Shown one piece after another: positions 2,031-33,875 of a DNA stretch of 64,000 nucleotides. Below the pieces are notes generated by a model. The model saw nothing but the letters and a program-made list of their open reading frames with translations. It was not told the DNA's origin and made no database searches. Where the stretch lies: contig JAEBUN010000070.1 of NCBI GenBank assembly GCA_023014365.1, positions 46,912 to 110,911 on the forward strand, in the 5' to 3' direction. The stretch is from Lepiota brunneoincarnata. Its lineage: Eukaryota > Basidiomycota > Agaricomycetes > Agaricales > Agaricaceae. Made by a program: the position numbers and the translations under genes. Numbering within the stretch: the first letter of the stretch is position 1; every line of letters begins with the position of its first letter.

Positions 2031-2690
2031 TGTCATATCCATGCCAACTCAGAGTCTAATCACTTAAACTTCGGCTTCTCGATTCCACGTGTGCTCCACA
2101 CAACAACCCTCTGCCCTCCGACTCAGCCCCGACTTGCTCCAACCGCAACCCACCGCCCCGATCACACGACCACCTCCACACGTGCCGTGGTCACCTGACC
2201 CTTGGTGTCTCTAGTTCCAGTCTCCATTTCCCGTCTGTAGTCACGATACGTTATCGGTCTCTATACCTGTACCGGTTTCCATTCCATTCGTAATCTGTTC
2301 GTAATCCGTTGTAACTATATCGGCCTCTGCTTCGCTCCGCACGTAATCAGTACGAGTCATAGTTCGTAAGGCCAGTAGTATATATACTGTAGGTACTTGG
2401 CTTGTACTCCTCAGTCTGATAATCGAATCAAGCAGCGGACCAGCTCCCTGTTCTCTATCCTCTCCTCTCTTCTGCCTCGCTCCGCTTCGGCCCCGACTTC
2501 CTGAAATACGGACTAGGACAGTAGGAGGGCACAGCACATACGCTGAGGCCGCAAGTCCAACCCCCCGCCCGACGTACTCCGCCTCGGTCCCAAAGTCTAC
2601 ATACTGACTTCACCCTGTCCCCCGGTTACCTCATATCAAGGTTACCACCCCGACCCTCCGCCTCGGTCCTGACCCGCACCGGCTCTAACA
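2031..2690 (+). repeat. 5' LTR of G1
   Basis: It starts TGTCATATCC directly after the target duplication and ends GGCTCTAACA. It matches 9250-9909 and, in inverse orientation, the LTRs of G3 and the solo LTR at 26407. It contains the core promoter described separately. Confidence 0.95.
2379..2423 (+). promoter_or_regulatory. Core promoter and predicted RNA start in the G1 5' LTR
   Basis: A TATA box (GTATATATAC, about 2379-2388) is followed about 30 bp downstream by AGTCTGATAAT at 2413-2423. This 11-mer is the exact complement of the primer-binding site. That fixes the likely 5' end of the RNA (start of R) near 2412-2413, at the normal TATA-to-start distance. The same pair occurs in G2 and G3. 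Confidence 0.7.
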
Positions 2691-2703
2691 GTATTATCAG
2701 ACT
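2691..2703 (+). other. Primer-binding site of self-priming type
   Basis: The bases just inside the 5' LTR (ATTATCAGACT, 2693-2703) show no complement to a tRNA 3' CCA end. They are a perfect 11-nt reverse complement of the predicted RNA 5' end at 2413-2423. Tf1 of fission yeast primes minus-strand DNA this way from the first 11 nt of its own RNA. The same site is present at 23354-23364 (G2) and, on the minus strand, about 37761-37771 (G3). Confidence 0.75.
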
Positions 2704-2745
2704 CCACACTCCTCCTGTCCATCACATTTCTGATCCCTTCTAACC

Positions 2746-4152
2746 ATGGTCTCTCGAACAGTCACCCGTACCCGCACTCTCGTGTCCCCGGCTGTTCGCC
2801 GTAGTAGACGTGTCGCTCGACAACCCCTTTCCAAAGAACTGCAACCCAACTCCCCGAGGGCTCCTCGCTCTCGTCTACAATCGGTCGCACCATCGACTCC
2901 CGACCGCTTCTCTGAAGATATCCAACCTTCATTATTTCGGACTCCCGACGGTCCCGATGAGGGCCCCGACCCCAATCCTGATTCCAGTGACCCTAGTGAT
3001 CCCGACGACAATCCTGACAATGGGGACGGGCCCCCGGATGACAACGAACCATCAGACAACGGCGACAACAACAACAACGTTCCACCTGGCAACACCCGAG
3101 ACGATCATGACAGACTCCTACTCCAAGTCTTCCAACGCATAGCCAATCAAATGGACGGCCGTGGGAACTCTCAAGCCCCACAGCCCCCTCAATCTCCCCG
3201 TACCAAAGCTCGTGAACCTGACATCTTTACAGGTTCCGACCCCGCCAAACTCAAACCCTTCCTCTTCCAATGTTGGCTCTATTTCCATACTAACCCGGCC
3301 CAGTTCGCTATCCCCGCCACCAAGGTCAACTTCGCATTGACATACCTCACAGGCGTGGCACAGCAACACTTCGAAATTGGCCTCGACGAGGCCGACAACC
3401 ACGGAATAATACACGACTGGATCGAGGACTGGGACCAGTTCACCCTGGAACTGCAGACCAATTTTGGTCCCGTGGATCTGACCGGAGAAGCTGCTGAGCA
3501 GCTCGACTCCCTCTGAATGCGCTACAATGAGAAGATCGCCGTCTACAACGTCAACTTTCTCTGCCTAGCTGGCCAACTCCGTTGGGGCGACGAAGTATTT
3601 TGTCACCGCTACTACAAAGGCCTCCCCGACCGCATCCAGGACATCCTGTCCAATTGGCCCAACGGCAAACCTGACACCTTGATTGAAATGCGGGCAGCAG
3701 CGATGAAGATCGACGCCCGCTATTGGGAGCGCCAACGCGAGAAGGCCCACGCCAAAGCCACTTCGGACCTGACCGCCTCTAGGAAACCTGGGGGCAATCC
3801 ATCCCCATCCACCTCGTCCAACACCCAACCTGCCGCCAAACCTGTCAACAGTAACAACAAAGGCAGCACCCCCAACAACAACAACTTCAAGGGTAATCCG
3901 CCCAACCCGTCCACCGGTCAGAAATCGGCCCCGCCCAAATCCGACCTTGCTAGTAAACTTGGTAAGGATGGTAAATTAACCCCCGAGGAACGTCAACGAC
4001 GTTTCGACAATAACCTCTGCCTTGTCTGCGCAGATCCCAATCACAGGGCTGCCAACTGCGACAAGAAGAAATTCCCTGATGCCAAGGCTAAAGGCCGACA
4101 GGCTCAGCTCCCCGAGACAGACGCACCGACTCTCCCAAGCTCAGAAAAATAG
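2746..4152 (+). pseudogene. G1 gag (capsid/nucleocapsid) with one stop
   Basis: The ATG at 2746 sits in a good context (CCATGG). The frame spans 468 codons with one internal TGA at 3514-3516; G2 keeps CGA at the matching position (24173). The N-terminal 130 residues are basic, then very acidic and Asn/Pro-rich. The capsid-like helical domain follows (about residues 155-310, with PDIFTGSDPAKLKPFLFQC and GDEVFCHRYYKGLP). A Ser/Thr/Pro/Asn-rich linker leads to one CX2CX4HX4C knuckle near 4018-4060 (CLVCADPNHRAANC). Gag would form the particle and bind the element's RNA. It ends AAA TAG at the frameshift site into pol. Confidence 0.92.
4144..4152 (+). other. Conserved A5-TAG at the gag end: candidate -1 frameshift site
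   Basis: Gag ends GAA AAA TAG and pol lies in the -1 frame, which is open from upstream of the stop. The same A5-TAG is kept in G2 (about 24802-24810) and in G3 (minus strand, 36320-36327), although the surrounding bases differ. It is not the canonical X XXY YYZ heptamer. A lysine tRNA slipping on the A run next to a stop codon is the simplest reading. Confidence 0.45.
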
Positions 4153-7100
4153 TTGGCGGTCCTCAGGCCTCTGCACAGACTGAGGATCGCATTGAACTCT
4201 GCTGTGCTCCAGAGAGTTTCCGTCTCAATGCATCTGCTCTTTCCGACCCAAACTCTTTTCACATTACATTAACTTCTCCTTTAGTTACTTCTTTATCTTC
4301 TGTTTCCGCTTCCGTACTCTCCGATTTGGACCCGCTTTCTACAACGAACAATGTAGTTAGTTCTGATTTCTCTTCTCTTTCTCCTTTCAAAGCTCTTGTT
4401 GATAGTGGTTCTACTCACTGTTTTGTGGACTCATCTTTTGTTCGTTCTCATAGTATTCCAACCTCGTCCATCCTGGGTATTGAACTTCGGTTATTTGATG
4501 GGACCTCAAATGCCTACATTACGGAGCTTGTGCAACTGCCTGTATCCTTCCCCTCCGGTGAATCTATCATTTTGGACACTTATGTCACCCGGCTCGACTC
4601 TTCCTGTTCTGTGGTCTTAGGACACAACTGGCTCACCCGCTACAATCCGTTGATTGACTGGGCATTGGGCAGTATTACTTTCCGGCCATCCCTACTCGAG
4701 AATCCTGCTTCCGTCTCTACCTGCGTCGCACCCGCATCGGCCCCGCCTATGGCCAACCCTGACACTCCTGACCTAGGTTCACCACCCCTGTCCGGGATCT
4801 CGTCCCAATCTGTCCCCCTTGCGAAACCGCACATATCCCTGATAAACGCTCCTGCCTTTATCTGCGCTGCCAAGCTCCCTGGCTCCCAACAATTCTGAAT
4901 TAACCTCTCCACTGCCTCCGCATCGGCCGCATCTTCTTTTGTCTCCGATGACCCGGCTGACCTCTCGTCCATCCCCAAGGAATACCACGAGTTCGCAGAT
5001 GTTTTCAGTAAATCGCGTGCTGACACACTCGCTCCACACCGCCCTTACAACCTCCAGATTAACCTAGAGGATGGCGGTCAGCCTCCGGTCGGTACCATTT
5101 ATTCCCTTTCACAATCAGAGCTTGGAGCTCTACGTGATTTTATTGACAAACATTTGTCCATTGGTTTCATTCACCCTTCCACTTCTCCTCATGGAGCCCC
5201 GGTCCTCTTCGTCAAGAAAAAGGACGGCTCCCTCCACTTATGTGTTGATTTTAGAGGTCTCAACCGTATTACCAAGAAGGACCACTACCCCCTTCCGCTC
5301 ATCTCTGACCTCTTAGACTCTCCTCGCAAAGCCCGCGTATATACCAAAATCGACCTCCGTCACGCTTACCATCTTGTCTGCATTACTGACGGCGACAAAT
5401 GGAAGACTGCCTTTCGGACCCGCTACGGCTCCTTCGAATGGATGGTTATGCCTTTCGGCCTCACCAACGCCCCTGCCACTTTCCAGCGGTTCATGAACGA
5501 TATATTCAAGGACATGCTCGACGTCTGTGTTACCATCTATCTTGACGATATCCTGATATACTCCGACAATCATAGCATCCATCGTGGCCAAGTCAAGGAG
5601 GTCCTCAAGCGGCTCCAACAACACGGTCTATACACCCGCCCCGACAAATGCCAGTTCCACTCTGACACAGTGGAATATCTCGGCTACATTCTTTCCCCCG
5701 ACGGTCTCCGAATGGACCAATCTAAGGTCAAGACCATCCAGGAGTGGCCTGAACCCAAGAAAGTCAAGGACATCCAGTCCTTCTTAGGTTTCGCCAATTT
5801 CTATCGTCGCTTCATTCACGGTTACTCCGACATCGTCGTTCCGCTCACTCGCCTCACCTGCAAAGACGTGAAATGGAATTTCACTAACGAATGTCGCGAA
5901 GCCTTCAGTTCCCTGAAAGAAGCATTCATATCCACCCCCGTCCTCACTCCTTGGACCCCCGATGCTCAGATCATTGTTGAGACCGACGCCTCCGACTACG
6001 CCCTTGCGGCCATCCTCTCTATCATTGCCGATGATGGTGAGGTTCACCCTGTTGCATTCCATTCCCGCACCTTTAACACGGCCGAACTTAATTATGACAC
6101 CCACGACAAGGAACTCCTGGCGATATTCAAGGCTTTCCGTATCTGGCGGCACTATCTTGAGGGTGCCCCTCTTACTATTGATGTAGTCACCGACCACAAA
6201 AACCTCAAGTACTTCTGCACCACCAAGATCCTTACTCGCCGCCAAGCTCGTTGGTCCGAGTTCCTATCCCAATTCCACCTCGTCATCCGGTTCCGACCTG
6301 GCCGCCTCGGCACCAAGCCTGATGCCCTAACTAGACGATGGGACGTCTACCCTAAAGGGGGGAATAGCGACTATGCATCAGTCAACCCGCACAATTTCCG
6401 GCCCGTATTCACCCACGAGCAGCTCGCAGCCTCTGTCCGTGCCACCACTCTTTACGCCCCTTCCCTTCGCGCCGCTGTAGTCATGGATCTCGACCAGCTA
6501 CACCGCGATATCCTCGCCACCCTACCAGTGGATCCGACCGCCTCCACCCACCTTGCTAGCCCAGAAGGCCGTTGGTCAGTTAATGATAAAGGTTTCCTCC
6601 TCTTAGACGACAGAATCTACGTCCCTGACGCCGACAATCTCCAACTTTGGGTCCTCCAGTACAAGCACGATCATGTCCTAGCCGGCCACTTTGGTCAGAA
6701 TAAAACGCTGGAACTCATCCGGCGTGAATACACCTGGCCTAGTGTCCGCACCTTCATCAAAGATTTCTGTAAGTCTTGTGTCACCTGTATGAGGTCTAAA
6801 CCCCAGCACCACCGCCCCTATGGTCTCCTCAAGCAACTCCCCATCCCTGAACGCCCGTGGAATTCAATCTCCATGGACTTCATCGGAAAACTCCCTGCCT
6901 CCTCCGGCTACGATGCCATCCTAGTAATAGTCGACAGACTCACCAAGCAATCCTTATTCATCCCCACCTACGATACCGTCACTTCCTCCGACCTTGCCTG
7001 CCTATTCGTCCTCCACGTCTTCTCCAAGCACAGCGTACCCGAACATGTTACCTCTGACTGCGGCTCCAAATTCGTCTCCCACTTCTTCCGCTCCCTAGGA

Positions 7101-7952
7101 CAAGCCCTCAACATGAAACTACACTTCACTTTGGGCTATCATCCAGAAGGCGACGGACAGACGGAACGCACCAACCAGACCCTGGAACAATATCTCTGGG
7201 TCTATTGTAACTACCAACAGGACAATTGGTCCGAATTACTACCACTAGCTGAGTTTGCTTACAATAACGCCCCTAGTGCCACTACCGGTATCTCCCCGTT
7301 CTTTGCTAACAAAGGATACCATCCGAATATCACAGTTCACCCTGAACGCGACCTCGCCTCTGCCCGGGCCCGCCATTTTGCTGTTAATCTCGACAACCTA
7401 CACACCACCTTGAAGTCTGAAATAGTGTTAGCCCAGCAACGCTATCAGGCCTCCGCCGACGCCCACCGACTCCCCGCCCCGGACTTCAAGGTTGGACAAA
7501 AGGTATTCGTAAAAGCCCAATTCTTCCGCACCACCCGTCCTTCCAAAAAACTCTCCGAAAAGTTCCTTGGGCCTTATGAGATCATTGCACAAGCAGGTAC
7601 CCATTCCTTTACACTCCGACTTCCTGATTCCATGCGTGGGGTACACCCTGTCTTCCATGTTTCCATGCTCGAACCGGCTACGCCTAATACCATACCTGCC
7701 CGATCAGACCCGCCACCGGCGCCAGTTTCTATTGACGGTGAACCAGAATACGAGATTGCCCGCATCGTCGATTCGAAGATTGATCGGCGCCGCGCATGCA
7801 AGCTTCTCTATAAAGTCATCTGGTTAGATTATGAAGATACTGAAGAAGAATCCTCGTGGTTACCAGCAACCGAACTTGAACACGCTACCGATCTAGTAGA
7901 GGCTTTCCACTCCTCTTACCCCTCTAAGCCTGGTCCCCTCCATTCACTCTGA
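4149..7952 (+). pseudogene. G1 pol: protease, RT, RNase H, integrase, chromodomain; one stop
   Basis: The frame is open from the gag stop except for one TGA at 4896-4898, where G2 keeps CGA. The aspartic protease motif DSGST is at 4401-4415. The RT includes YLDD at 5538-5549 and its LSPDGL and FLGFANFYRRF segments. The RNase H has ETDASDYALAAIL near 5980 and TDHKNL. The integrase has the HHCC zinc region (HDHVLAGHFG, then CKSCVTC, about 6667-6790) and the catalytic triad: Asp in SMDFIGK, Asp in TSDCG (7053) and Glu in DGQTE, a DX35E spacing. A GPY/F module (FLGPYEII, VHPVFHVS) precedes a chromodomain (about 7738-7900, YEIARIVDSK, LLYKVIWLDYEDTEEESSW). All catalytic residues are intact, so apart from the stop this copy could have been active recently. 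Confidence 0.95.
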
Positions 7953-8011
7953 ATCTTCTGCTGACCACCCACCACACCAAGAAACAAAAAATATTATTGG
8001 ACATGTACAAA

Positions 8012-9117
8012 CTACTTGTCCGTATCGTTCCCAGAGGTACGGGGCGGCGCCGCCGCGTCCTCCATCATACCTTGCACCTCCTCTTCCGAAATGCCTCCGA
8101 TGCTCTCCGACTCCGACTCCTCTGTCTCCGTAATACCCCTACTCGGCCAATCACCATCCACCTGCGCTTCCCAATGCTGCAGCTGTTTGTAGCGGCCAGC
8201 CATCAATTCGAACTTATCCACCCTCTCCCCCAACTGAGCAATGGCCTGTTTGAGCCGCACCTCCATGATATTCACCCGCTTGAGGGTCTTCTGGTGCCCC
8301 TCCTCGATGAGTCGCTTCAGCTCTACGTGATCTTTTGGTCAGCAAACCTCGCAGCCAGAAACCCCTACTCACCTTCAAATTGGTGGTCCGGCATACCTCC
8401 GGCCCCGCTCAGCTCCATCTCTTCTTGACCCCCGCATCGTTTCTTCATTTTGCTACACCGTCGGCAACTCCTAGTGTTGCTGGGACCTTTGTCAGCATTT
8501 ATCATCGTTGGAATTCTTGTAGTTACTTACCCGCCGGCAATCTCACACCGGACCTCATCCCGCTGGCATCTCCAGCACGAGTTATCGCCCCCGAATACGT
8601 GTTTGTTGCCCCGCCGCAGGGCTGCCCTCGCCTTCCCCTTTCCCTTTCCCCTTCCCTTCACATCCGAGTCTTCGGACTCCTCCTCCTCCTCCTCTTCGTC
8701 CCTCGCCACGTCTTCGCCCGTGTAATTCGGGTCGGACTCTTCCTGGTCGATTTCCATGGGCTGCTCGGGCAGGCGGCTAGACGAAGCCATCGTGGTCATC
8801 GCAATGAGTCGGGCCCGGATCGCCCGACGTTCGTCCTCAGCAGCTTCCTCTTGCTGCTGCCTGATCTCTTCCGCCCGTCGCTCCCTAGCCCGCTCCTCCG
8901 CTTGCCGCTGACGCAGTTCAATCATACGTCGCCGGTCTTCCTCTTGACGCTCTGCCGCCAACCGCCGTTCCTCCTCTCGCCATTCCTCCTCTCACCGTTC
9001 CTCCTCTTCCAACCTCTCGATCTCCTTCCGCATCCGCTCCTCCTGCTCCACCTTTTCCCTCAGCAACTGCACCTTGCGCTCCGCCGCGGTTGGTTGTCGA
9101 GACGATTGACTGCTCAT
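8012..9117 (-). pseudogene. G1 antisense gene: coiled-coil protein with Zn2Cys6 cluster, spliced
   Basis: The gene lies opposite to pol, between the pol stop (7952) and the 3' LTR. Three exons, 8531-9117, 8373-8479 and 8012-8322, join through GT-AG introns of 51 and 50 nt. They encode about 334 residues with a single in-frame TGA early in exon 1 (about residue 42; G3 has CGA there). The first 110 residues are a charged Glu/Arg/Gln-rich coiled coil. Next comes an acidic stretch and a basic Lys/Gly tract. Cysteines then spaced CX2CX6C-X9-CX2CX6C form the fungal Zn(2)-Cys(6) binuclear cluster, which intron 1 splits. A second helical segment (KRLIEEGHQKTLKRV) and an acidic tail (SEEEVQGMMED) end the protein. 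A DNA-binding transcription-factor-like role is inferred from the cluster only. Intron positions and protein match the G3 copy. Confidence 0.88.
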
Positions 9118-9164
9118 GGTGGTAGGAAGTCAAGTTGTGTATTTTCGGACCGAGCCAGTTCACC

Positions 9165-9173
9165 GTTTTTTAT
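9165..9173 (-). promoter_or_regulatory. TATA box of the G1 antisense gene
   Basis: On the minus strand GGGTATAAAAAA lies about 50 bp upstream of the antisense ATG and outside the LTR. The same box at the same distance is present in G3 (29728-29736). The antisense gene therefore appears to have its own RNA polymerase II promoter. Confidence 0.65.
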
Positions 9174-9249
9174 ACCCTGCCAGAATTTTCCGACGGGCCC
9201 CGGCCGAGGCCGCCTTGGGCCTCGAGGCTCAGCCCTAAAGGGGGGGCAC

Positions 9250-9909
9250 TGTCATATCCATGCCAACTCAGAGTCTAATCACTTAAACTTCGGCTTCTCG
9301 ATTCCACATGTGCTTCACACAACAACCCTCTGCCCTCCGACTCGGCCCCGACTTGCTCCGACTGCAACCCACTGCCCCAATCACGCGACCACCTCCACAC
9401 GTGCCATGGTCACCTGACCCTTGGTGTCTCTAGTTCCAGTCTCCATTTCCCGTCCGTAGTCACGATACGTTATCAGTCTCCATACCTGTACCGGTTTCCA
9501 TTCCATTCGTAATCTGTTCGTAATCCGTTGTAACTATATCGGCCTCCGCTTCGCTCCGCACGTAATCAGTACAAGTCATAGTTCGTAAGGCCAGTAGTAT
9601 ATATACTGTAGGTACTTGGCTTGTACTCCTCAGTCTGATAATCGAATCAAGCAGCGGACCAGCTCCCTGTTCTCTATCCTCTCCTCTCTTCTGCCTCGCT
9701 CTGCTTCGGCCCCGACTTCCTGAAATACGGACTAGGACAGTAGGAGGGCACAGCACATACGCTGAGGCCGCAAGTCCAACCCCCCACCCGACGTACTCCG
9801 CCTCGGTCCCGAAGTCTACGTACTGACTTCGCCCTGTCCCCCGGTTACCTCATATCAAGGTTACCACCCCGACCCTCCGCCTCGGTCCTGACCCACACCG
9901 GCTCTAACA
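9250..9909 (+). repeat. 3' LTR of G1
   Basis: Same length and ends as the 5' LTR. It is preceded by AAAGGGGGGG (polypurine tract) and followed by the second GTATC. The differences from the 5' LTR are transitions, mostly at CpG/TpG/CpA sites. Confidence 0.95.
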
Positions 9910-10397
9910 GTATCCTTGACATTTTATCCCCTGTTTCATATCGACTTGAACTCCCCAAACATTGGAAAATCCACCCTGTATTCCACGCCCAACTCCTCAT
10001 GCCGTATACTGAAACTGAAACGTATGGACCCAACTACGTTCGACCTCCACCCCTAACCATCGAAGGCAAAGAAGTATACGAAATCGAAGCTATACTAAAT
10101 CACTGAAAACAACAAAACCACCTTGAATATCTAGTCAAATGGCTCAGATGGCCCAAATCCAAAAACACCTGGGAACCTGAGTCTCACTTCAAATCAGTAC
10201 CCGATGAAATCAGACCCAAAACTCTGGATGGAAGAATTATCCCCGAAACACCTGATGAAAGAGACACAGTAGCATTCCTGATGGAGTATAAGCAACTCAA
10301 AGGACTCAACCAAAATGATGAGAACATGCCCGTTATTCGTTCTCTTAAAGCCATGAAGAAACCACACCGTTCTTGCTGCCACCCCTACCGTAAATAA
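9910..10397 (+). pseudogene. G0 pol C-terminus: GPY/F module and chromodomain
   Basis: This is the continuation of G0 pol after the G1 insertion, beginning with the second copy of GTATC. The reading LPKHWKIHPVFH is the usual GPY/F-module segment that precedes a chromodomain in chromoviruses. The chromodomain follows (YEIEAILNH, one TGA, then LEYLVKWLRWP and NTWEPE). Its aromatic residues and the YLVKW strand are clear. The chromodomain is thought to direct integration to marked chromatin in this group. The frame ends in TAA at 10395-10397. Confidence 0.85.
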
Positions 10398-10423
10398 ATC
10401 ACACCACTTCACTTAACAGCACA

Positions 10424-11512
10424 ATGCCTTCCTCCATCCAATCTCTCCTATCTGAATCTGCTCTTATTTCTACCCCACCGACATTAGATGGAACAACCAG
10501 ATCCTCGTCCATGCAACCTGACTCCAACCACATCCTTTACCAATTTCTCGTCGAAAGCGCCCTTAACACCACTGAAGACACACCACCCCCATGCTGTGTA
10601 CCATGACAGACCACTCCCCCCAGTCCCGTTCCATCCGTTGCTGAAATGCCAACCACCATCCCCACTCCCCCGCTTGTCGCTACCATTAGCGACTATATTA
10701 ACAAAGTCAACAGTGCCTCTACCCTTGTCTTTTCGCTTCTTATCACACCAACGCCAGCAGTATCAACAGAAGTTCGTGATGGCTTCTTCCAACTCTGCGA
10801 AAACCTTCTTTGCCTCCATGGCCTCGAGCAAAGCGTTGAAAGAGTCAAAGAGGCAAACCAGAACACATTTAATCACTTGTGGGCAGACCCCACCTTCCGC
10901 CAAATCTTCACTGAGCATTGCAGCTCCACAACCAGTATATGGATTGCGCCCACAATCCCTAGTCTGATTCAGCCTATGTCAACTGACAGACTGGCCTGAC
11001 AAGTCCCCGTTCACTCTACCCACCAACGAGTTCGACCTGAACAACCTCCAAGCCCTACTACCCTGCCTATTATCGTACCCCCCACCTCTGCACCACCACC
11101 CTGAACTTGATGACAAACAGTGGATGACTTCACCCAGCAAATGGAAGCCCATCAACAGCGGGAGACCCACCCCCTACCCCAAAGACCTCCTTGACATCGT
11201 ACCACCCCCACCATCACACCCCAAGCTGCGACAACCTGCTTGTACAATGTTGGAAGAAATTGCTGTTTTGAGTGCCATCAAATTGGCCACTGGGCACACA
11301 GCTGCCCCCGATATACCTGTTGTCACTGCAACCACTCCGTGCCAGGACATTACATGTGGACCTGCCCAGTCTACCACCAGAACCAGTGAAACGCCATGCT
11401 TGAAAGGACGGCGCAACAATATCCCAACACCTTTGGACAAACATACAATATTATTGGTGACAGCCAATACAATGACTACAACTATGCCTACAATGGTTAC
11501 TGCTACGACTAG
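10424..11512 (+). pseudogene. G0 post-pol reading frame with double zinc knuckle
   Basis: A reading frame begins 27 bp after the pol stop and can be followed in one frame for about 360 codons with several TGA/TAG interruptions (first at 10604-10606, then 10997-10999). The first half is Ser/Thr/Pro-rich with a central helical stretch (about 10646-10990, FFQLCENLLCLHG). The second half holds a classical CX2CX4HX4C knuckle (CFECHQIGHWAHSC, about 11256-11297), directly followed by a second Cys/His cluster (CCHC, then H and C). The tail is Asn/Tyr/Gln-rich. Gag-type knuckles normally lie upstream of pol, so a knuckle protein after pol is unusual. It could be a relocated nucleocapsid-like protein or an accessory protein. 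Function is not known to me. Confidence 0.6.
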
Positions 11513-11600
11513 AAATGACTACTTCCGCAATCCGCACCTGACGCCCATACCCCACCATCTATTGGCTTCAAAACAGAGTTCAAAGATTAGAAGGGGGTAA

Positions 11601-11952
11601 TGTTACCATTTTCCCATTCACGCACCTGTCTGTCTATTTTTGCTTATCACATGTCACCGCCCACAGTCAGAACCCAGTTATATTTATTTATCACATGTCA
11701 CCACCCATCTATAGTTAGTACTCCCTTGGCTTGTGATTCTCGTCCATCCGCATGTGATTCTTTCCTTTATCACATGCCTGTTATCCCAGTAGTATATATA
11801 AACCTAAGTATTACTTGTAATCCTTAGCTTTGTCTTGTTATACACCGTATTTGTTCCTGCTCTTTGGTATCGCCTTAGACTTGCTCGCACTACTCAATGG
11901 TTAACTTGTTGTTAATCACATTGAGCCTTGCAGACACCTAACCAGCGTAACA
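11601..11952 (+). repeat. 3' LTR of G0
   Basis: The repeat begins TGTTAC and ends GTAACA (6-bp inverted ends, TG...CA). It is preceded by a purine-rich tract (AGAAGGGGG, 11590-11598), as expected for a polypurine tract. A TATA-like tract lies at 11793-11802. Three copies of a TATCACATG motif lie upstream of it (about 11644, 11686 and 11769) and could be enhancer elements. The 5' partner LTR is outside the window. Confidence 0.8.
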
Positions 11953-12474
11953 GAGGGAGCCTTATGGAGGTTTCGCCAAGGGGGTTCTTGCACGAAAAGA
12001 ATGTTAAAGTCATTCTTATACACCTCAAGGTAATTGTCCAACAAAATGTAATTGGGAGTCTACCAGTCCCCAAAGGGCCAAAATGGTGGTGTGTTGGTTG
12101 TCAGAATAGACATTCATAAGGTTATAGGTGTGCCCTCCCTGCCACATGGACATAACCATAACCCAATGGTTGACCAAATCCCTGTGAAGGGATGGCCATA
12201 ACAACTTCAGCCTTGAGTGGACATAAGCTAACACCTGCAGGGATGAATTGCCTGGCTGAGGGTTCCAAATGCAAGTCCACTCTGGATGGAGTGGAGTACC
12301 TACAACACCCTCACTGTTCTTACAAACAGTAGAGGGAGCCTTCTAGAGGTTCCACCAAGGGGGTTCTTGAACAAAAAGACATCAAAGTTATTTTTATACA
12401 ACTTGAGATAATTGTCCAACAAAATGTAATTACAATTTACATTCTGAGACCATATGCATAACTCATTCTGGAAC
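11953..12474. repeat. Spacer with a ~105-bp imperfect direct repeat
   Basis: No gene is recognised. The segment at about 11948-12052 recurs at about 12322-12430 with roughly 80% identity by eye (shared blocks GAGGGAGCCTT, AAGGGGGTTCTTG and ATTGTCCAACAAAATGTAAT). The first copy starts exactly at the end of the G0 LTR. It may be part of the interrupted LINE-A downstream of ORF1 or a separate old repeat. Confidence 0.5.
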
Positions 12475-14166
12475 CTAGGCATTACTCCTGGGTTGAGTTA
12501 GCAGGATCCTGGAGGTGGCAGACAAGCCATGTACCTCCTGATATCTCTTCTTGGCCCAACCATCCTCAAAATGTTTGCACCAGAAAGGACATTTCTTGTC
12601 GTGGGCAGTATGGGTGCTGCCACAGTTCCTACAGTGGGGCTGATAAGGGCACTCTGTGCCCTCAGCAGTGCCAGCAACTGGTGGGTTCGCATTGGGGTGG
12701 GCTTTGCAGTATCCTGCCATTGACCAATGATTGTCCTCACTATGCAGCTCAGAGCAGCTGGGGCAGGTTGGGAATCTCACCCTGTAGACATTAGTTGGGT
12801 GCCCCCACCACCAGCAATGGCGGCAGAGAGATGTCCCAACTCACTGGGAAGCCATGCTTATAGGGCAAGCACGGGGCCCAATAGCCAACGACCCTCTGAT
12901 CATCGACTTGGAGGTGGACCTGGTCTGCGAGTCCCAAATCTCAAACCAGACAGTTGCAGTGTCTGACTTGTTGGAGTTCCTCCAGACCTGGGGAGAGCCC
13001 TGAAGGTTCTGAAAACCACAATGTGACGACTGTCACATGATGTTCTCAATCCACTGACTGGTAATGAGGGAACTGTCAGGGGCAAAGAAAGGGACGTCTG
13101 ACACCTTCATGAAGGACTTAGAGGATGGGACCGTGGCCATAGGCTGTGATCCCGAAGGGAAGAACCAGGAGGCCCAGTCCTGGATCACACTAAGATCTGC
13201 CATAGACGCAACTAGGTCAGTCATGAGGGATACACCATCGTATGCCAGGGAGGCGGACATGACATTAAGGTTAGATCTTGTGTTGAAGAGGGCACGGTTA
13301 GCTCCTGCAACAACCTGAGACAAATCCTTGATTGGAGGCTGAGGCCCCACAAACAGGATGACAACCTGGTGCCTCGTGGGGCCAGAGGTGGTATTGCGCA
13401 GCCTCTTTCAGGGCCTGCTAGCAGAAGGGGTTGGAGATCCTCGACCAACCATGTGGAGGATGTCTGTAGGGGACAGGTGGGGGAAGGCCCTTGCTATGGT
13501 AGTGATAGCCTCTGCGACCTTAGTATCGCTATCCCTAGAGACCAGGGGGGCGGTGGCCACCTGAGCAAAAGAGCACTTGGTATCCTTAGGCTTGGTGGAG
13601 AGGTTCACCTTAGGCAGTGGCGGGAATGCCATCCACACATAGTACATGCCTGCTTGCAAAGGCCCAGGACCCATAGGATTGGGCAGCTTCACCGGGGGAG
13701 GAGGGGCCTTGCCCTTACCCTTGTTGCCCCTAGGGGCAGTGGGCTTAGCCACACCCAATCCTGCAGCTGGGGTGGCATGGGAGTCAGGAGCCGTGTCCAT
13801 GGGGGCTGGACCAGAGGGCAGAGCCTTGATTACAAGCCTGGAGGTGGGGGCTCCAGTGATGCCCTTAGAAATCGCCTTCACTGCCTCTGGAATGGATTGG
13901 TGTATGCCCTCCCCAAAGGGGCATATGCCATCAATAATAGAGGCCTACAGTGTCTCCTCGTCCGCGTGGTCATCCAGGGCATAGTCAAGGAATCCACTGC
14001 AACCAGTAGCCTTGAGGAGAAGGTCGTAGGCCGTCCACACCCGCTCCCACGACGGACCAGTAAGCAACTCCTCAGTATGCTCAGAGAGATACTGGGTCGC
14101 GACCTCCAATGACTCCCCTATTGCCTGCATGTTCATTGCCTGATTTGGGGCAGACATATCCACCAT
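12475..14166 (-). pseudogene. LINE-A ORF1 (gag-like zinc-finger protein), decayed
   Basis: One minus-strand frame can be followed from 14166 to 12475 through several stops. The N-terminal part reads as a helical domain (VATQYLSEHTEELLTGPSW). A Pro/Lys/Gly-rich linker follows (about 13680-13820). Then come a conserved block (PPLPKVNLSTKPKDTKCSFA), a second globular region (13033-13350) and, at the C-terminus, Cys/His clusters including CX2CX3HX6C (CRNCGSTHTAHDKKC, about 12600-12650). This architecture matches ORF1 of Tad-like fungal LINEs, an RNA-binding protein needed for retrotransposition. A possible N-terminus in another frame starts at 14450. No matching ORF2 follows, since G0 lies immediately downstream. 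Confidence 0.65.
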
Positions 14167-14766
14167 GAGATCTAATCTGGGGGGGGAGACCAGGGGGAGG
14201 GGGGGGCAAAGAGGGGGCGACCCCCTTTGCTAGAGTTACACTGCAGTTGTTTGGAAGACAACTGCAAGTTGTTAGAGAAGTTGGAGAGGCAGGAGACAGG
14301 GCAAGCCTGCCTCAGCATTTCCACTGGGTCTACTGCCATCCCACAAGGTGGGGAGGCAGCATGAATGCTTGCAGCAATGCCAGACAAGCTAGTGGGGGCA
14401 GTGGTGGGGCTTTTAGGGAAGCTGAGGGACAAAGTGTCCAAGGGGTCCATGGAGGGGGTAGGGGGGGGGGACCACAGCCTTGGCTGCAAGATCCGCCACG
14501 ATCTGCTCCTCCTCACAAAGCCTGCTGGGAGGCTGAGGAGGACATGTTTGGTTGAGGTTACCACTGGTCGAATCCAACAGCGGGGGTGCGCAGTACAAGA
14601 CGATGAGTGAGGATGTGGGTGTGGCTGTGCACATTACTGGTAGTGGTACCAGATCAAGAAGCAATGGCAGTGAATTATCTGCTTTGGCCCTTGCTGGGCC
14701 ACAAGTTCAGAGGGAGTTCCCCAGCGCACCCTCGCTCTATTTTGTCTCTCACTCCGGTGCTTCGGC
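14167..14766. other. Unassigned LINE-flank sequence
   Basis: G-rich sequence with runs of G (14190-14210, 14456-14470). The minus strand may hold the 5' part of LINE-A ORF1 (ATG at 14450, then Ser/Pro-rich codons). I recognise no other gene. Confidence 0.3.
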
Positions 14767-15950
14767 CCAAGGTGAAGAGTGCCCTTATAGAAGTACAGAA
14801 TGTCCTTTGGCAGCTTACTGAGTTGTTCAGTCTGTTTGTGGATGAGAACAGACCAGGTCTCCAACTTTTGGACTGCTTCTTGGGGTGGATCAAATTTATG
14901 CTCTATACTGTTGATCCAGAAGGGCTTTGAGGCAATGGCATGTTGATGGACTGCATGCTGACCCATCGTCTGCGTGCATAGCAGCTGGTGCCCATTGGCT
15001 GCTGTGCGGGAGACTGCAGGCCATCTCAGCAGCTTGTGTGTTTGCAGGCGGACGCTTGGTCAAGCAGGCCATGGGGAGAGTTCTCCTTGCTAATGCAGAA
15101 CTCCACTCCATTCGGCTGGGAGTAGGCATGGTCTTTGATCATGCTGAAACTGACCACATCTTTGTCTACACCAGCTCCACAGGCTCTGCCTGCAGAGCTG
15201 TGGATCCTTCTGTATACATCAGCCAGGCTCATTCCCTGGAGGTGTGTCAGTCTCTGGACTGCTGGTTGTCTGCCAAGGCCCAGCAAACTGTCACCTTCTG
15301 GCAGGTGCCTTTGGGCTCTGTTGCAGAGCTTCACTCTGACGCTATTGTGATGGCAAAAGAACTCCATGTATTGCTGGGCATTTGCCCGGCGACTACTATT
15401 GACTCCCTCCAGGCTGAGGTTATGAGGGGGTACATTGACAAGTGGGTGAACATGTTTCGCTCACCCTTGTATAGGGGTAGGAATTTTCTCCCCCTGCTGG
15501 ACTCCCTCGGGAAGCCTCTCCAACCCTTGTACCTCTCTGGAGGTACATGGCTCCAGGAAATTGGTCCTCGGATGTCTGTCGCTGGCACAGTGCAGGCAGT
15601 CTGCACTATACTTGGTCACGCCCCTATAGGGGAGTACTGCACTAGATTCCACCCCCAGGAGGATCACTCCTGTCCTTGTGGGTTACAGCTTGAAACCCGC
15701 ACTCACATTCTCACTTCCTATCCAAAGTACACACAATGTGGCGGCTTACTCCATGACCTCAACGCCCTTCTGGGCTTTCTGGAACGCAACCCCTCCATGC
15801 TTGTGTTCCTATTCCAGTCCCAAGGGGTGGAATAACTGGGGAGGGCCTTTGGGTTAGTCCCCCCTTGTGGCTTAGGCCTCGAGGAGTCTATGGTTATTCA
15901 CCAGCTGCTCTCAGGCGGTCTGAAGTGATTTACTGTGAACTGATGCATTA
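14767..15950 (+). pseudogene. LINE-P: 5'-truncated LINE ORF2 (RNase H to C-terminal zinc region) and 3' UTR
   Basis: The main open frame, 14927-15835, encodes the RNase H-like domain (ANAELHSIRLGVGMV, FVYTSSTGSACRAVDPSV, WLSAKAQQTVTFWQVP). The LINE C-terminal region follows, with a CXCX7HX4C-type cluster in which the last Cys has become Tyr (SCPCGLQLETRTHILTSY). The 3' UTR follows from 15836. It lacks EN and RT, so it is a dead-on-arrival copy. It belongs to the same family as LINE-Q and LINE-S. Its 3' UTR abuts LINE-Q directly. Confidence 0.75.
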
Positions 15951-17006
15951 CAAGGTGAAGAGTGCTCTTATGGAGGTACAGAATGTCCTTCTGCAGCTTA
16001 CTGAGCTGTTCAGTCCATTTGTGGACGAGAACAGTGTTGAAATCATCCCAAGAAGGTGTATACCAACAATGGCACATATTCGAGGGGAGACAACAGCAGG
16101 GGTAAGGGAGGTAAACAGACAGTGTAACTACTTGAGAACAACAGGTATATAAGTGTAACTACAGTGAGGCTACCATGAGGCAGTCAGCTACTCTGGTGGT
16201 CAGCATTCCGTCAGTTTGCCGGAATCACCATTTCCAACAAACAGGCCAGGTCTCAGACTTTTGGACCGCCTCTCAGGGCAGATCAAATTTATGCTCTACA
16301 CCATTGATCCAGAGGGGGATTCAAGGCAACGGCATCTCGATGGACTGCACGCCTCCATTCAGAGGGTGTAGGCCGACCCATCGTCTACGTGCATAGCGGC
16401 TGGTGCCCACTGGCTGCCATGCAGGAGACTGCAGGCCATCTCAGTGGCTTGTGTATTTGCAGGCAAACACTTGGTCAAGCAGGCCAAGCAGGCTGCGGGG
16501 TGAGTTCTGCTTGCTAATGCAGAACTCCACTCCATTCGGCTGGGAGTAGGCATGGTCCTTGATTGTGCTGAAACCAACCACATCTTTGTCTACACCAGCT
16601 CCGCAGGCTCTACCCGCAGAGCTGTGGATCCTTCTGTATATGCCAGCCAGGCTCACTCCCTGGAGGTGTGTCGGTCTCTGGACCGCTGGTTGGCTGCCAA
16701 GGCCCAGCGGACTGTCACTTTCTGGCAGGTGCCTTTGGGCTCTGTTGCAGAGCTTCACTCTGATGCCATTGCAATGGTGAAGGAGCTTCATGTGTCACTA
16801 GGCGTTTGCCTGGTGACTACTATCAACTCCCTCCGTGCTGAGGTCACAAGGGGGTGCATTGATGAGTGGGTGAACATGTTTCACTCACCCTTGTATCAGG
16901 GTAGGAATTTCCTCCCCCTGTTGGACTCCCTCAGGAAGCCTCTCCAACCCTCGTACCTCTCTGGCAGTACCTGGCTCTGAGAAATTGGCCCTCAGATGTC
17001 TGTCAC
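15951..17006 (+). pseudogene. LINE-Q: second truncated copy in tandem with LINE-P
   Basis: Homology with LINE-P starts at the same internal point (AAGGTGAAGAGTGC) directly after the LINE-P 3' UTR. The RNase H frame is at 16552-16980 (FVYTSSAGSTRRAVDPSV, WLAAKAQRTVTFWQVP). It is broken by a solo LTR at 16035-16239 and ends where the poly(T) of LINE-B begins at 17007. I could not find its continuation on the far side of LINE-B. Confidence 0.7.
16035..16239. repeat. ~205-bp solo LTR in LINE-Q
   Basis: The sequence begins TGTTG and ends CAACA and is flanked by the 5-bp duplication AACAG (16030-16034 and 16240-16244). It interrupts LINE-Q at a place where LINE-P is uninterrupted. A TATA-like TATATAAG lies near 16146. 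This is what remains after LTR-LTR recombination of a small LTR retrotransposon; its family is unknown. Confidence 0.75.
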
Positions 17007-20000
17007 TTTTTTTTTTTGTTTTTTTTTTAAATCTCCAATTTATTATGTGGGCCGTGTAGGGAGGCCACGTGCAGCAATGTACTACAGTACAAATGACTGA
17101 GCCGTACACTACAGGGTATCTGTACATACAACACATGACCATGGATGCGGGCATGCGTTTCCCCATGCCCAGGATGAAGCCACCCCGAATGAACAGAGGT
17201 GGGAGGACAGCTACCCCCCAGCATGCGGAGCAAGAACCAAACCGGGGTGAGGTCCCCCTCCCTTATTGGGGGTTAGGGGTCAATTCCCACATAAATCCCT
17301 ACACGCCACCCAAAGGTAGCAGGGGAATAACCAATGCCCCGGCCCGGACCCAACCGGGCGCCAGGCAGAGCTACTAGCCGATACCCCCAGGGGGGGGCCC
17401 GGCCCTCTCAGTGAACACAAACGTGGTTGGCGACGCCTCAAGGAAAGCAATGAGGGCCTCAACCATAGCTGGGACCCCCACCATGGAGTGCCTGGGGCAA
17501 CTCTGGAACACATGCTCGTGAGTCTCCTCCCAAAACCTGCAGTGACAGGAATAACCTTCCTGTGGGAAAAAGCGCCTCTGATAGCTCCCTATTGGCGTGT
17601 GATTAAGAATAGCACGTGTCATCCGGGCCATCACTGACACTGAATGAGCGTGCGGGATCCAGGCCCCACCATAGAGATACGTGGGCCAAAGGGGACAATC
17701 GTCATCCCTGGCGAGCTGGAGGAAACCATGCCCATGGTAGTCAGGATCCTGGAACAAATCAATCCAGTAGTCCTGGCATGAATGTACTTCCTCCTTGTGG
17801 AGGTAGTCAAGCGAGGCCTGGGGACAAGCCCCTACCCCAACGGGAGGCAACGACCTAGCAAAGTTGTGCACCTGAGTATGGAAAGGCCACTTTGCATGTG
17901 AAGGGACCTCCCAGAAGTGGACTGAGTGGGCCGGACCCCCGGCGAACCACTCAGCGAGAAGGCGACAGACCACCAAGGAATGACCCTGGGTGGAGTGTAC
18001 CAATGGGTCCACCGCTTGCCTGGCCAAAGCCATTGAGTTGGTGAACAAGACAAGACCAGCGGCGCCCCTGACAGTAACTGCCTTGGACACCGCCAGCCAG
18101 ATGGCGAAGAGCTTGGCCTCTGAAGCCGTAACCTTCCCCCCCGGAAGCTGGACCGCATGGATGCAGTCCTGCCCCTGGAATATCTGAGTGGCTGAAACCG
18201 CCTGGTGGACCCGGTGGGGTGGCAGACTTGCATCCGTCGCCGCCACCAGAACCCCCGGATCAGCCTGCACCCGGGTGAGAACCCAGTCAAGAGCTGTGAC
18301 ATGGGCTGCGAGGGCATCCTCCACCCCCCAGTCATACGAGTGGAAGTGGACCCTCCCCGGGTACACATCCAAGAGATAGTGCCCCAGCCAAGCCTCTGGC
18401 ACAACAGTGTCAAAAGGCCCAGTGAGGGTGGCAAGACACTGGTTAGCGTCAACAACAGGCCCCTTCACCTTGATCAACTTGCGGGGAGGGAGCCTGGCTA
18501 TGGACCGGACATGGGACCGGAGATCACCGCTGTAGCCCCAGCTAAGGAGGGCATGGATGGGATGGCCCAGAGCAAGCGTGGCATACCGCAACTCGGCGCA
18601 ATCACGGAGCTTCCAGAGATGAAGATGAATGGGGATCAGGCCCACAATGGCCCCGACCCCCCCATCAGGCGACGTCCTAAAGGTGCCAGTAATCCAGAGT
18701 GCAGCCCGACACTGCATCCAGCAAAGGTGGTCCAAGGCGCCCTTACACCTGGCACCCTGGTAATACCACAAGTGAAAGCCATACATGGCAATAGGAACCA
18801 CACATGACCAATACAGAAGGTGCTTCTGGTCTGGCAGAAGCCCCCAGACAGAGTTACCAAGCATTCCCATAGCCTTGACCATGGAAATAGCCTTGGTAGA
18901 GTAGAAGCGAACATGCTCCCTAAACGTAAGGGCATGATCGAAGTAGAAGCCCAGATACCTCCAATAGGTCTTGGGCCAAAGAATGGTAGCGCCAATGAAC
19001 AGGGGAAACCCCAAGTCCACCGGGGGATTCTCACTGGAATGATCCTGTGAGAAATGGAAGAGCTTGGACTTGTCGTGCTCCATGACAAGTGCGAACCAAG
19101 TGAAGGTGTCATGGACCACCTCGTAAGATCTGTGGAGCAGGACGCAGTTAGCATCCAGGTCCCAGGCCTGCGCCAAGATGGTACCATTGTTGATGTAAGA
19201 CAGGAGCGACAGGCCTGGCTGAGGGAGCCTCCGCTCAATAATATACATGGCGGGAGCCAAGTAGAGGCTGGATAGGACGGGTGAGAGGGCAGACCCCTGG
19301 CCTACCCCCACCTCTGCCCGGAATGGTTCAGACAGGAAGGAATTCCAGGCATAGCTGGTGAACCTCCCTGTGAGATAAGAAGCGAAGAACTGGCCCACAC
19401 AAGGGGAGAACCCCTGCTGAGCCAGAATCACGAGAAGCATCCCATAGTTTAGGGATGGGAAAAACTGTGTGATATCAAGGTGAGAACACTTGTCTTCAAC
19501 CTGCAGGCCCACCCGGCATGGACTAAGTGCACAAGGTAGGCACCAGCATCTTTGGTGGACCACTGGATCACACCTCCAAACTGGTTTGGATGGAACACGC
19601 CAAACTTGACAGCCTCAAACTGCAAGCAGCACAAGATCATTTTCTCAATAAGCTTACCGAGAGTATTGAGAAGGACGATCGGTCTGAACGCCTTCGGTGT
19701 AGCATAGGAGGACTTGCCAGGCTTTGGTATAATAACTGACATGCTCTCCTTAAAGTGACAAGGCCAATGCCCGCACTCCATACAGGCATCAGTGATCTGA
19801 CAGACCAAATGGGTAGCCGTCGGGCCTGCCAGAATGGACTTGAGGTGCATCCACATGACGTGGTCCAGACCAGGCGATGACAAAGAGGAGCATGCGCGCA
19901 AGGCATCGTGCATCTCCAAGTTGGAGAAGACTGGCCACTCCCATGGTGGGAGCAGATCAATCTGATCAAGAACACCAACATCAACCTGGCGGTTGTTGGC

Positions 20001-20735
20001 AGCATTGTAAGAGCTGTGGAGCCCTTCCCAGAGCTCCTCGAGGGTGTTGCAGGGGCGATCGTGATAATGGATTGCCTTGCAGGGAGGCAACTTGTGCGCC
20101 CTGACCCAATCCATCAGGTTCCAGGGGCGCTTGTTAGTAGAAGCAATCTCCTCGATGTGCTTATTGAAGAACTTGTGCTTAGCAGCCTTCTAGGTCTGCT
20201 TAAATGTGCGCACATCCTCCTGGTCCTGGGACCAAGAATACACCGCGTAAGTGTGAGAGCACTCGTCATCCCACCATGGCTTAGACCGCGAGACAATGCA
20301 GATCTCCTTGGAGTTGGCAAGCCACGCCTCAGAGAAGACCACAGAGATAGCCAGGGCTACCTTGTCAATCCTGCCAGGTGAGCCCAGGTCCGGAAAGTCC
20401 AGACCCATAAGCCCCATCAAGACCTCAGCCAGGAACTTGGCCTCCTTGTCCAAGCCCCGCCTCAGCGAGCATCTGGGCACAGCCCCCTTGAAGGCCTCCA
20501 GGGGGACAGTGATCCAAAGGGGGCAATGATCAGATTGACCCCGCAGATCAGGACACCACATGGGAAGTGGCAAGTGGCTGCACACCCTTGTGAACATGAG
20601 GTCGATCACGGTAGAAGTGAGCCCCTCCTCAAAGGGGAAGTGCATGGGGCCTGGGTTCTCAGGGAGCGAGAGATCCAGACCCAGTGAGTCCACCGTTTCC
20701 AGCAGGGAGGCAGCAGCAACGGGGTTGTGGGATAA
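17007..20735 (-). pseudogene. LINE-B: Tad-like LINE ORF2 (EN fragment, RT, RNase H)
   Basis: Minus strand, with the poly(A) tail seen as poly(T) at 17007-17028. The C-terminal half of an APE-type endonuclease is at 20190-20693 (STVIDLMFT, QSDHCPLWI). The RT follows (KAFRPIVLLNTLGKLIEKM near 19670; LDITQFFPSL, GVGQGSALSPVLSSLYLAP in 17374-19563). The catalytic box reads YINNG (about 19185-19200) where YxDDG is expected. Next come the RNase H (ATDASLPPHRV, GGKVTASEAKLFAIWLAVSK) and a C-terminal Cys/His cluster (SCHCRFWEETHEHVFQSC). The frame shifts near 19500 and has a stop near 20115-20190. The 5' part (ORF1, endonuclease start) is missing. The large open RT-RNase H block suggests moderate age. 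Confidence 0.82.
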
Positions 20736-21060
20736 CTACCAGTAAGGTAGGGGAGAAAGCCCCACTGGCTTGAAATGCTACACTCTGTAAAGAAGTGTGC
20801 ATGGGTGAAGAGTCCACTACCCCAACAAAAACTGGAGCGCAGGAAACAAGGGGTAGATAGGGCCTAGAGGTCCCCCCCCCCTTTGGGGGGGTTAGAGGTC
20901 AATTCCCCATAAATCCCTGCACCCTGCAGACTAAGGCTCTAAGAGCTTCAGGTTCCCCCCTTATCAGGGTTAGGCATCAGTTCACTGTAAACTGCTACAC
21001 CCCACCCAAGGGCAGGAGGTGGATAACCATCGACTCCTTGAGACCAAAGCCCAATCAGCA
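20736..21060 (-). repeat. LINE-U: 3' UTR fragment of the LINE-P/S family
   Basis: The sequence matches the reverse complement of the LINE-S 3' UTR (42840-43190) in order: GGTAGGGGAGAAAGCCC, GGGGTTAG(A/G)GGTCAATTCC, CTCTAAGAGCTTCAGGT and TAACCAT(C/A)GACTCC. No coding part remains. The same fragment type recurs at 40445-40890. Confidence 0.65.
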
Positions 21061-21084
21061 GACTTGCATCCATTAGAGCCCCTC

Positions 21085-21162
21085 TAGCCCAGTGGTTTCA
21101 ATCACTAAAGATGGGGAGAGGTGGCTGTGCATGGCTGCCAGAAAGGTTAGGGGTTCAATTCT
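21085..21162 (+). repeat. Possible tRNA-derived SINE head
   Basis: TAGCCCAGTGG (21085-21095) fits a pol III A box and GGTTCAATTCT (21152-21162) fits a B box with its CpG decayed. The box-to-box distance (67 bp) is longer than in an intron-less tRNA. Acceptor pairing was not convincing, so this is a relic or chance match. Confidence 0.3.
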
Positions 21163-22689
21163 CTCTCATCCTCCATACCTGTGAAATGGGGAAAGGTTGC
21201 ACAGTTGTCATCAGATACTACCATGTGCTTGGTTCTTCAGGTGGGTAAACTATCTCCAAGGAAATTTGGTGGTTTCCTTGATCTCAGTTCTCAATTTGGC
21301 AACTGACAATTGTTGATCTGGAGTAAATCTGGGGGAGAGATCATTGGAGCCCAAAGTGGCAGATCTGGATCAATCTTGATTGGACTAGATTGGCTGTACC
21401 TGATAAGGGAGTAAAAGCACAAGGTATGGTAAGTGGGGGAATTCTAACAAAAACAGATTGAATGTCCTGATTTAGGGGCCAGGTAACCCCCCACATGGGA
21501 ATACTTGGTCCAGGTGCCACCCACATAAGCCGAGTAAGTACTGGTCATTAGTCTATGGTAGTAGGTATCCAGTTGGGTGGCAAAGGATGGGGCATTGGGG
21601 CATTGGGGTTACCTACAGCTTCTTCCATAGGGGTTGCTAATTGGGGAGGTCTGCCACCTGGACCTTGGAGCTCTGAGTGAGTCCACATCTGGGCATGCCC
21701 TGGGGTTAGATCCCCCATGGGTGTTCCATCCAAAGTGGGCAGCACAGGCTTAGGGTACCGAAACAACTCCATGCCATTGGTCCATGGACCTCTGAAAGTG
21801 CAACATGGTTGGCTGTGGGCAAGGCAGAGACCTGGGACAGGTGGGGATCTGGCACTTCTTTCCCTCTTACCACCATCATCCCCCTCTTATATTATTTTCT
21901 ACTCCTAATCTACAGGCAGCTGTCCCATTTTTAGTGGGTTGTCTACACTATACCACCTCTCTTCACCCTTCTGGAGTATCCTGGGGCTGTCTGGGGTTGT
22001 TGGGGAATTGGGTACACCCTTGGCAAAGGTGCTTAATGGCTGGGTATGCTGGCTGCCTGATGAGCTGGTGATTCTGGGCAGCCTCTACTGGGGTCAGTGG
22101 ATCCCTGGCTGGCCAAAATGGGTTGGGAGTCCCCCTGGGCATGTCCTAGGTGGGTTTGCAGTGGGACAACCATGCTTCTTGCCAAGCTCTCACAAAACCC
22201 GTAGCAAGTGTGCTTCCCCCAAATATGTACCCCCTTGCAAGTAGGGAGTTTCCTGCTTGAAAACAAGGGCATGCTGTAAGGGCGATCTGGTTGCTGTGTT
22301 GTGTCAGCTGAGCAAGAAGAAACCTTAGTATCATTTCTGGACTTCTACCAAGTACATACCTGAGCAGGGAGAAACCTTAAAGAATTGAGTAAGGTTTCTC
22401 TGAGCTTGCCTACACTACTTATACTACCTGATGTAAGGTCTGAGTTGAGTAATCTACTCTACATAAATGGCCATGAGGTGTCAGGGATGCCTAAAGTGAG
22501 TATAGCTGGGAATGGGCTTGGAATAGGGTCATGCACACCAGTGAGGGTTTGCATCTGTGTTGGAGGGGTGTAGGAGGGAATTCTGAGTACTGGGGTGCTG
22601 GGGGGACAGATTTCTGGGCCCAGGGAGGCTGGAAATCGGATTTCCGAGCATTGGGAGGCTGGGAATCAGATTTCCAAGTACAGGGAGGT
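21163..22689. other. Unassigned, CpG-poor repeat-like region
   Basis: No gene is recognised. About 21690-21860 is an inverted, diverged copy of 41885-42056 (shared blocks CCCACTTTGGATGGAACACCC, GAGGTCCATGGACCA, CTGTCCCAGGTCTCTGCC on the minus strand here), which marks a dispersed repeat of unknown type. A CATTGGGG duplication is at 21592-21607. The right end (22560-22689) contains degenerate GGGAGGCTGGAA(T/A)TC repeats that run up to G2. Confidence 0.35.
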
Positions 22690-33742: not shown

Positions 33743-33875
33743 TTTTAATACTAATCCAAGCAATCACATGACTCCGTTGATTGTGAATCAACAAGATCAT
33801 GTGACCACGTGTCTTTGACATATAAATAGATGTGCTGACAGCCATGTCCCATCATTCTCAACCCCCCTACCTACC

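Follow-up and report, generated by a model that had tools for sequence, protein, structure and literature searches.

The window analyzed here is a 64,000-nt stretch of the Lepiota brunneoincarnata genome, in which the element designated G1 occupies positions 2031-9909, as delimited by the ends of its long terminal repeats (LTRs) and a flanking target duplication. The 5' LTR (2031-2690, plus strand; 660 bp with TG..CA ends) and the 3' LTR (9250-9909, plus strand; 660 bp) are identical at 640 of 660 positions, and the duplicated target GTATC is found at 2026-2030 and 9910-9914. Pfam analysis placed the protease and pol, including reverse transcriptase (RT), RNase H, integrase, a Tf2-1-like SH3 domain and a chromodomain, at 4092-7952 on the plus strand, with pol proper at 4899-7952 and its stop at 7952. 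RVP_2, RVT_1, RT_RNaseH, Integrase_H2C2, SH3_Tf2-1 and Chromo all scored over the Pfam cut-off; the integrase core (rve) reached 28.4 bits, under its cut-off of 32.6. G1 is a chromovirus, that is, a Ty3/gypsy element with a chromodomain, LTRs and a target duplication. The tract adjoining the 3' LTR at 9237-9246 (plus strand), located in the sequence, we take to be the polypurine tract. A search of the protein collection returned 2552 relatives of pol at E ≤ 0.001 among 7995 scored candidates, with relatives at 68-80% among them; those named in the 120 matches listed were from Leucocoprinus, Pisolithus and Trametes. G3, a second element of the family, has LTRs at 28992-29652 and 37774-38434 (minus strand).

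Other repeats were observed around these elements. G1 seems to be nested in another Ty3-like element (regions 1-2030 and 9910-10400), the outer pol frame of which, judged by eye, lies before 2030 and seems to resume past the GTATC at 9910. A Tc1/mariner-type transposase frame (HTH_Tnp_Tc3_2, DDE_3) lies inside G3 at 33819-34892. The long frame at 17374-19614 (minus strand), whose reverse transcriptase match falls slightly short of the cut-off, is likely a non-LTR element, and a citrate synthase exon (PF00285) at 61882-62391 (minus strand) shows that host sequence lies next to the repeats.

Between pol and the 3' LTR of G1, on the strand opposite to pol, lies a three-exon gene at 8012-9117 (minus strand). 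Exon 1 (9117-8531) encodes a predicted charged N-terminal helix, an acidic plus basic linker and the first half of a zinc cluster. It is followed by intron 1 (8480-8530; 51 nt, GTAAGT..AG, with a CTRAY branch-point-like motif), exon 2 (8479-8373; 107 nt), which encodes the second half of the cluster, CRRCSKMKKRC, intron 2 (8323-8372; 50 nt, GTGAGT..TAG) and exon 3 (8322-8012), which encodes a predicted coiled coil, the tail and the stop codon. A TATA box for this gene was located in the sequence outside the LTR (9169-9174, minus strand), where TATAAA stands about 55 bp upstream of the antisense ATG; TATAAA was found no more than 200 bases from the LTR junction in 53 of 60 copies. The G3 gene (29785-30852, plus strand) has the same structure, its exons at 29785-30323, 30372-30478 (107 nt) and 30530-30852 being separated by introns of 48 and 51 nt. 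Each frame is interrupted by one stop in exon 1, a TGA at codon 42 in G1 and a stop at codon 152 in G3. An earlier, sequence-only reading of the window had given the coordinates of both three-exon frames, the shared 107-nt exon 2, the TATA box outside the LTR and the single stops at different codons, all of which proved correct. It had also credited G2 with retaining the C-terminal frame; a piece of the exon 3 frame is indeed present there, but it is a remnant of just 35 codons (38909-38805, minus strand; 83% identical by tblastn to the L046-type C-terminus) and not the whole C-terminal frame. Given the way such elements replicate, introns would be expected to last in a retroelement only in the antisense orientation, because the sense genomic RNA should then contain no introns.

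Conservation of the antisense gene across the genome

The family has well over a hundred copies in this one genome, with clear subfamilies. In the 55.6-Mb assembly searched, the LTR-internal junction beside the antisense gene occurred 188 times with at most 3 mismatches. The set of 101 copies comprised the 2 in the window and 99 further loci (L009-L108, L097 being left out as a short duplicate). Seventy-one of these loci were taken from 100 junction places listed of the 188 and therefore favor junctions with 0 or 1 mismatch, and the other 28 were picked by likeness to G1 exon 1 and therefore favor the G1 type. Exon 2 was kept in 90 of the 101 copies (criterion, no more than 16 of 66 bases changed), and the whole spliced frame was open without any change in 36 of the 101, encoding proteins of 313 to 334 amino acids; for the junction-sampled copies alone, these figures were 60/71 and 21/71.

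The splice sites were mostly conserved in this larger set. Intron 1 was GT-AG in 87 of the 90 copies having exon 2, and intron 2 showed GT..TAG in 79 of 90 by a template-based comparison; the template landed on GTA at intron 2 in five copies, and the TAG was present in three of these and lost in L018 and L061. The CTRAY motif was found in all 82 measured introns 1 and in 50 of 82 for intron 2. Among the 53 measured junction-sampled copies, the length of exon 1 was frame preserving in 50 and exon 2 was 107 nt in 49. Indels in the exons were mostly whole codons; the introns diverge and accept indels freely. In L059 and L063, intron 1 measures 71 and 56 nt, where about 48 nt is usual, its 3' splice site being preceded by an expanded run of T.

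The dN/dS of the antisense gene was approximately 0.2 between subfamilies. Pairwise values among 14 representatives ranged from 0.12 to 0.84, being highest between close copies and 0.14 to 0.19 where dS was at least 0.9. In nine pooled copies, the antisense gene gave a dN of 0.118 and a dS of 0.504 (dN/dS of 0.24), and the C-terminal pol region of the same copies (235 to 267 codons) gave 0.024 and 0.334 (dN/dS of 0.07), so the constraint on the antisense gene is clear yet weaker than that on pol. When all six frames were compared in 12 copies, the antisense frame was free of stops over 3180 codons, a count that is biased because these copies were picked as intact, and its dN/dS was 0.195. The other five frames had values of 0.315 to 1.79 and 19 to 115 stops, the second lowest being an opposite-strand frame (0.315, 54 stops). 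In the 46 broken copies alone, dN/dS was 0.53, 0.37, 0.32 and 0.19 with rising dS, a trend expected if selection acts while lineages are active and dead copies drift once inserted. By region (eight copies), the zinc cluster was the most constrained part of the protein, at 0.11, followed by the coil (0.18), the N-terminal part (0.22), the stretch past the cluster (0.31) and the tail (0.42). The frame, the splice sites and dN/dS agree, which confirms the antisense gene above chance; with dN/dS below 1 across many copies of this genome, the antisense, intron-bearing gene proposed in the sequence-only reading is under purifying selection.

Some copies are mosaics or lack parts of the gene. Mosaics such as L048, L062, L067 and L105 combine the exon 1 type of one subfamily with the exon 3 type of another. 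The antisense genes of L009 and L046 differ little (dS of 0.038), but their pol regions are far more distant (dS of 0.339). From such sequences, recombination, probably by template switching, would have transferred the antisense gene between subfamilies. A deleted copy, L068 (G000:C14:2867972-2870500), has a 219-codon frame which fuses exon 1 in frame to the C-terminus, without the zinc cluster and without both introns; its short product could be a dominant-negative form or a product of chance.

The predicted protein and candidate sites in the LTRs

The protein begins with a charged, E/R-rich part, followed by an acidic and then a basic linker, the cysteine cluster and a predicted helix. The consensus of the cluster is CWRC..RD...C.........CRRCSKMKKRC. 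Zn2Cys6 proteins follow the spacing C-x2-C-x6-C-x5-12-C-x2-C-x6-9-C, into which falls the C-x2-C-x6-C-x9-C-x2-C-x6-C of 35 of the 36 intact proteins; in the exception, L059, Tyr replaces the third Cys. Zn_clus (PF00172) was the sole Pfam match common to all four queries, at 7.6 to 17.4 bits, below the gathering cut-off of 21, and the bZIP family was absent among the Pfam matches of these queries. The assignment to Zn2Cys6 in the sequence-only reading is thus borne out by six cysteines at the exact spacing but not by the Pfam score, and we refer to the protein as Zn2Cys6-like. In regulators of this class, the segment from the second to the third cysteine is also basic, a feature not seen in the corresponding segments here (CQRDGVPC, CERDGVQC and CQRDEVRC); the basic run, SKMKKR, belongs to the cluster's second half. 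DNA binding by the cluster is a prediction only. The "long coiled coil" of the same reading is not proven, the heptad signal of exon 3 being weak, with a score attained by 22 to 89 of 1000 shuffles in the four proteins.

Neither the whole protein (E ≤ 1e-3, 7993 scored candidates) nor residues 150-290 (E ≤ 1, 287 candidates) had a homologue in the protein collection, an absence that is weak evidence because that collection may lack genes that are spliced or repeat-masked. No homologue was found in viral_contigs. The own genome gave 202 matches, and those listed were 52 to 100% identical and look like copies of the G1/G3 family. Among solved structures, the best E value, 0.22, was not meaningful, and entries of fission-yeast Pho7 appeared at E values of 4.6 and 7.1. 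An origin from a known gene was unsupported by the whole-protein, partial-protein and viral_contigs searches.

The LTRs of G1 contain everted CCG-N3-CGG repeats, four in the 5' LTR (2482-2490, 2579-2587, 2658-2666 and 2674-2682) and three in the 3' LTR (9337-9345, 9798-9806 and 9877-9885). In a set of 24 LTRs, from which L121 was left out because it is not an LTR, there were 2 to 6 per LTR (mean, 4.17), the highest frequency of the 39 CGG-pair arrangements counted. The next arrangements were direct N7 (3.12 per LTR), direct N8 (3.08) and inverted N2 (2.92), which are frequent partly because the motif itself contains several CCG/CGG. The whole window has 27 CCG-N3-CGG, 17 of them in the six family LTRs; there are six in the internal 6.56 kb of G1 and one in the window outside the family elements (10001-22700 and 39001-64000; 37.7 kb). 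The count observed in each of seven LTRs was reached by no more than 1 of 2000 dinucleotide shuffles, made by a procedure that was itself checked; with all 39 arrangements corrected for, the P values were 0.000, 0.002, 0.016, 0.024, 0.044, 0.13 and 0.134, the last two not being significant.

The 16-mer CTCCGNYTCGGYCCCG occurred 872 times in the genome versus once for the backward-read pattern, matches that largely tally the LTR copies of the family and cannot be taken as independent, and its 14-base core had all 13 of its window matches inside the six family LTRs. Comparison of CpG conservation in the sites with that of other LTR CpGs gave P values of 0.010, 0.119 and 0.237 with native references and 0.023 with a column-majority reference. 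The CpGs within the CCG-N3-CGG sites were not clearly better preserved than the remaining LTR CpGs, and we therefore call these candidate sites. By analogy, the repeats are candidates for the kind of site bound by zinc-cluster dimers; a host factor may bind them instead.

Proposed role and known systems

We propose that the antisense gene kept by selection encodes a predicted Zn2Cys6-like dimer that acts in the nucleus. Its transcript would be spliced, the protein is predicted to enter the nucleus via the basic patch ahead of the cluster and to dimerize through the exon 3 helix, and the dimer would likely bind the repeated CCG-N3-CGG of the element's own LTRs and may thereby set LTR transcription. 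On the sequence evidence we hold this proposal evenly poised between right and wrong. It draws on the gene structure, the 36 of 101 open frames, the splice signals, the selection, the cysteine spacing and the CGG-pair motif of the LTRs, all of which were computed. We lean toward a positive role, whether activation or protection against silencing, over pure repression because the element lineage retains the gene over many copying rounds. Since a DNA-binding-like module and a repeated candidate LTR target occur in one family, self-regulation is directly testable, and the question raised is whether a retrotransposon can have its own promoter regulator, one that also touches host genes.

Other readings were weighed against this one. 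The long plus-strand frame at 8311-9417 (368 codons) is open in G1, but that it should be the real gene is scarcely credible, given that the three opposite-strand frames of the 12-copy spliced alignment have 19 to 89 stops and dN/dS values of 0.315 to 1.79 and that the splice sites and exon-length changes match the minus-strand frame. Retroelement antisense transcripts are described as possibly working as RNA (PMC7264820), and the antisense RNA itself, with an incidental open frame, could be what matters, by forming double-stranded RNA, by silencing or by interfering with transcription. Codon-level selection, indels of mostly whole codons and the strongest selection in the cysteine cluster argue for a protein, and we regard an RNA role as very improbable.

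As a protein, the product could be a nucleic-acid-binding accessory factor which acts on the element RNA, particle or integration complex, as a chaperone or in nuclear import or integration targeting, with no regulatory effect on the LTR. None of the four proteins tested has a membrane-like hydrophobic stretch, the cluster is divergent from PF00172, and plant elements are reported to have nuclear antisense proteins of unknown role (PMC7264820), all of which would suit such a factor; the cysteine spacing, being that of a DNA-binding zinc cluster, and the repeated CGG-pair sites of the LTR speak against it, and we judge it unlikely, if far from negligible. A protein acting mainly on host genes or silencing, with a host zinc-cluster factor binding the LTR motif and driving the element, would agree with the 25 exon-level Zn_clus matches over the cut-off in the host genome and with CGG pairs as the usual targets reported for such factors (PMC5559640). 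That arrangement alone gives no reason for the element to have its own zinc cluster with a dN/dS of 0.11, and we consider it improbable.

In plant elements, in one fungal group and in some retroviruses, antisense genes have already been described in the interval from pol to the 3' LTR. In the Boty-like elements of Botrytis cinerea, reported to have a gag-pol with a CHROMO domain (PMC4227169), the additional antisense gene is brtn (described by Zhao et al. 2011, as cited in PMC7264820 and PMC8365987). As described for B. cinerea and Sclerotinia sclerotiorum, brtn resembles the present gene in lying antisense between pol and the 3' LTR of a fungal Ty3/gypsy element with CHROMO, a likeness taken from the published descriptions; unlike the present element, those carrying brtn have ascomycete hosts. 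The sequence-only reading had known of no fungal chromovirus with such a gene; brtn shows this to be wrong as regards antisense genes. In the part of the open-access literature matches covered, neither an antisense gene with a zinc cluster nor conserved introns in an antisense gene were seen for any fungal LTR element, which is not proof of absence; an additional ORF of unknown function is marked in some fungal elements (PMC2864245).

In plants, antisense ORFs are described for Grande (gene23), RIRE2, Retand (TRP28) and PvRetro13 (PMC11963269, PMC7264820). By the same accounts, they share with the present gene their place and orientation and their retention in most copies, Grande also has its own promoter upstream of the antisense gene, and for Retand DNA binding is predicted and a role in regulation has been proposed (PMC11963269, PMC7264820). 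Retand differs in that it is not a chromovirus and has a TRP28 domain and not a zinc cluster, and the term "intron" is absent from PMC7264820. As far as seen, the intron structure, the zinc cluster and the measured selection are new relative to the known antisense genes.

The protein is like Gal4 and Leu3/LeuB in its cysteine spacing, by the general rule for the class, and unlike them in its sub-cut-off Pfam score, in a basic run confined mostly to the cluster's second half and in the mid-protein position of the cluster. Zn2Cys6 regulators are reported to target CGG pairs and to dimerize by a downstream coiled coil (PMC6221358, PMC5559640). Leu3/LeuB bind everted CCG-N4-CGG (PMC6221358), with a spacer of 4 bp versus 3 bp in the candidate sites here.

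HBZ of HTLV-1 and the APH proteins of HTLV-2, 3 and 4 are reported to arise from antisense spliced transcripts at the 3' end of the provirus, to be mostly nuclear and to reduce LTR-driven expression (PMC10186651). HBZ is a bZIP protein with its promoter inside the 3' LTR, whereas the present gene encodes a zinc cluster and has its TATA box outside the LTR; the parallel is a likeness of plan, with no sequence relation claimed. That a spliced antisense zinc-cluster dimer might read the CCG-N3-CGG repeats as operators of its own LTRs, in a fungal parallel to HBZ, we put forward tentatively, at slightly less than even confidence. If true, the element would have an HBZ-like self-regulator made from a type of DNA-binding module that belongs to fungi.
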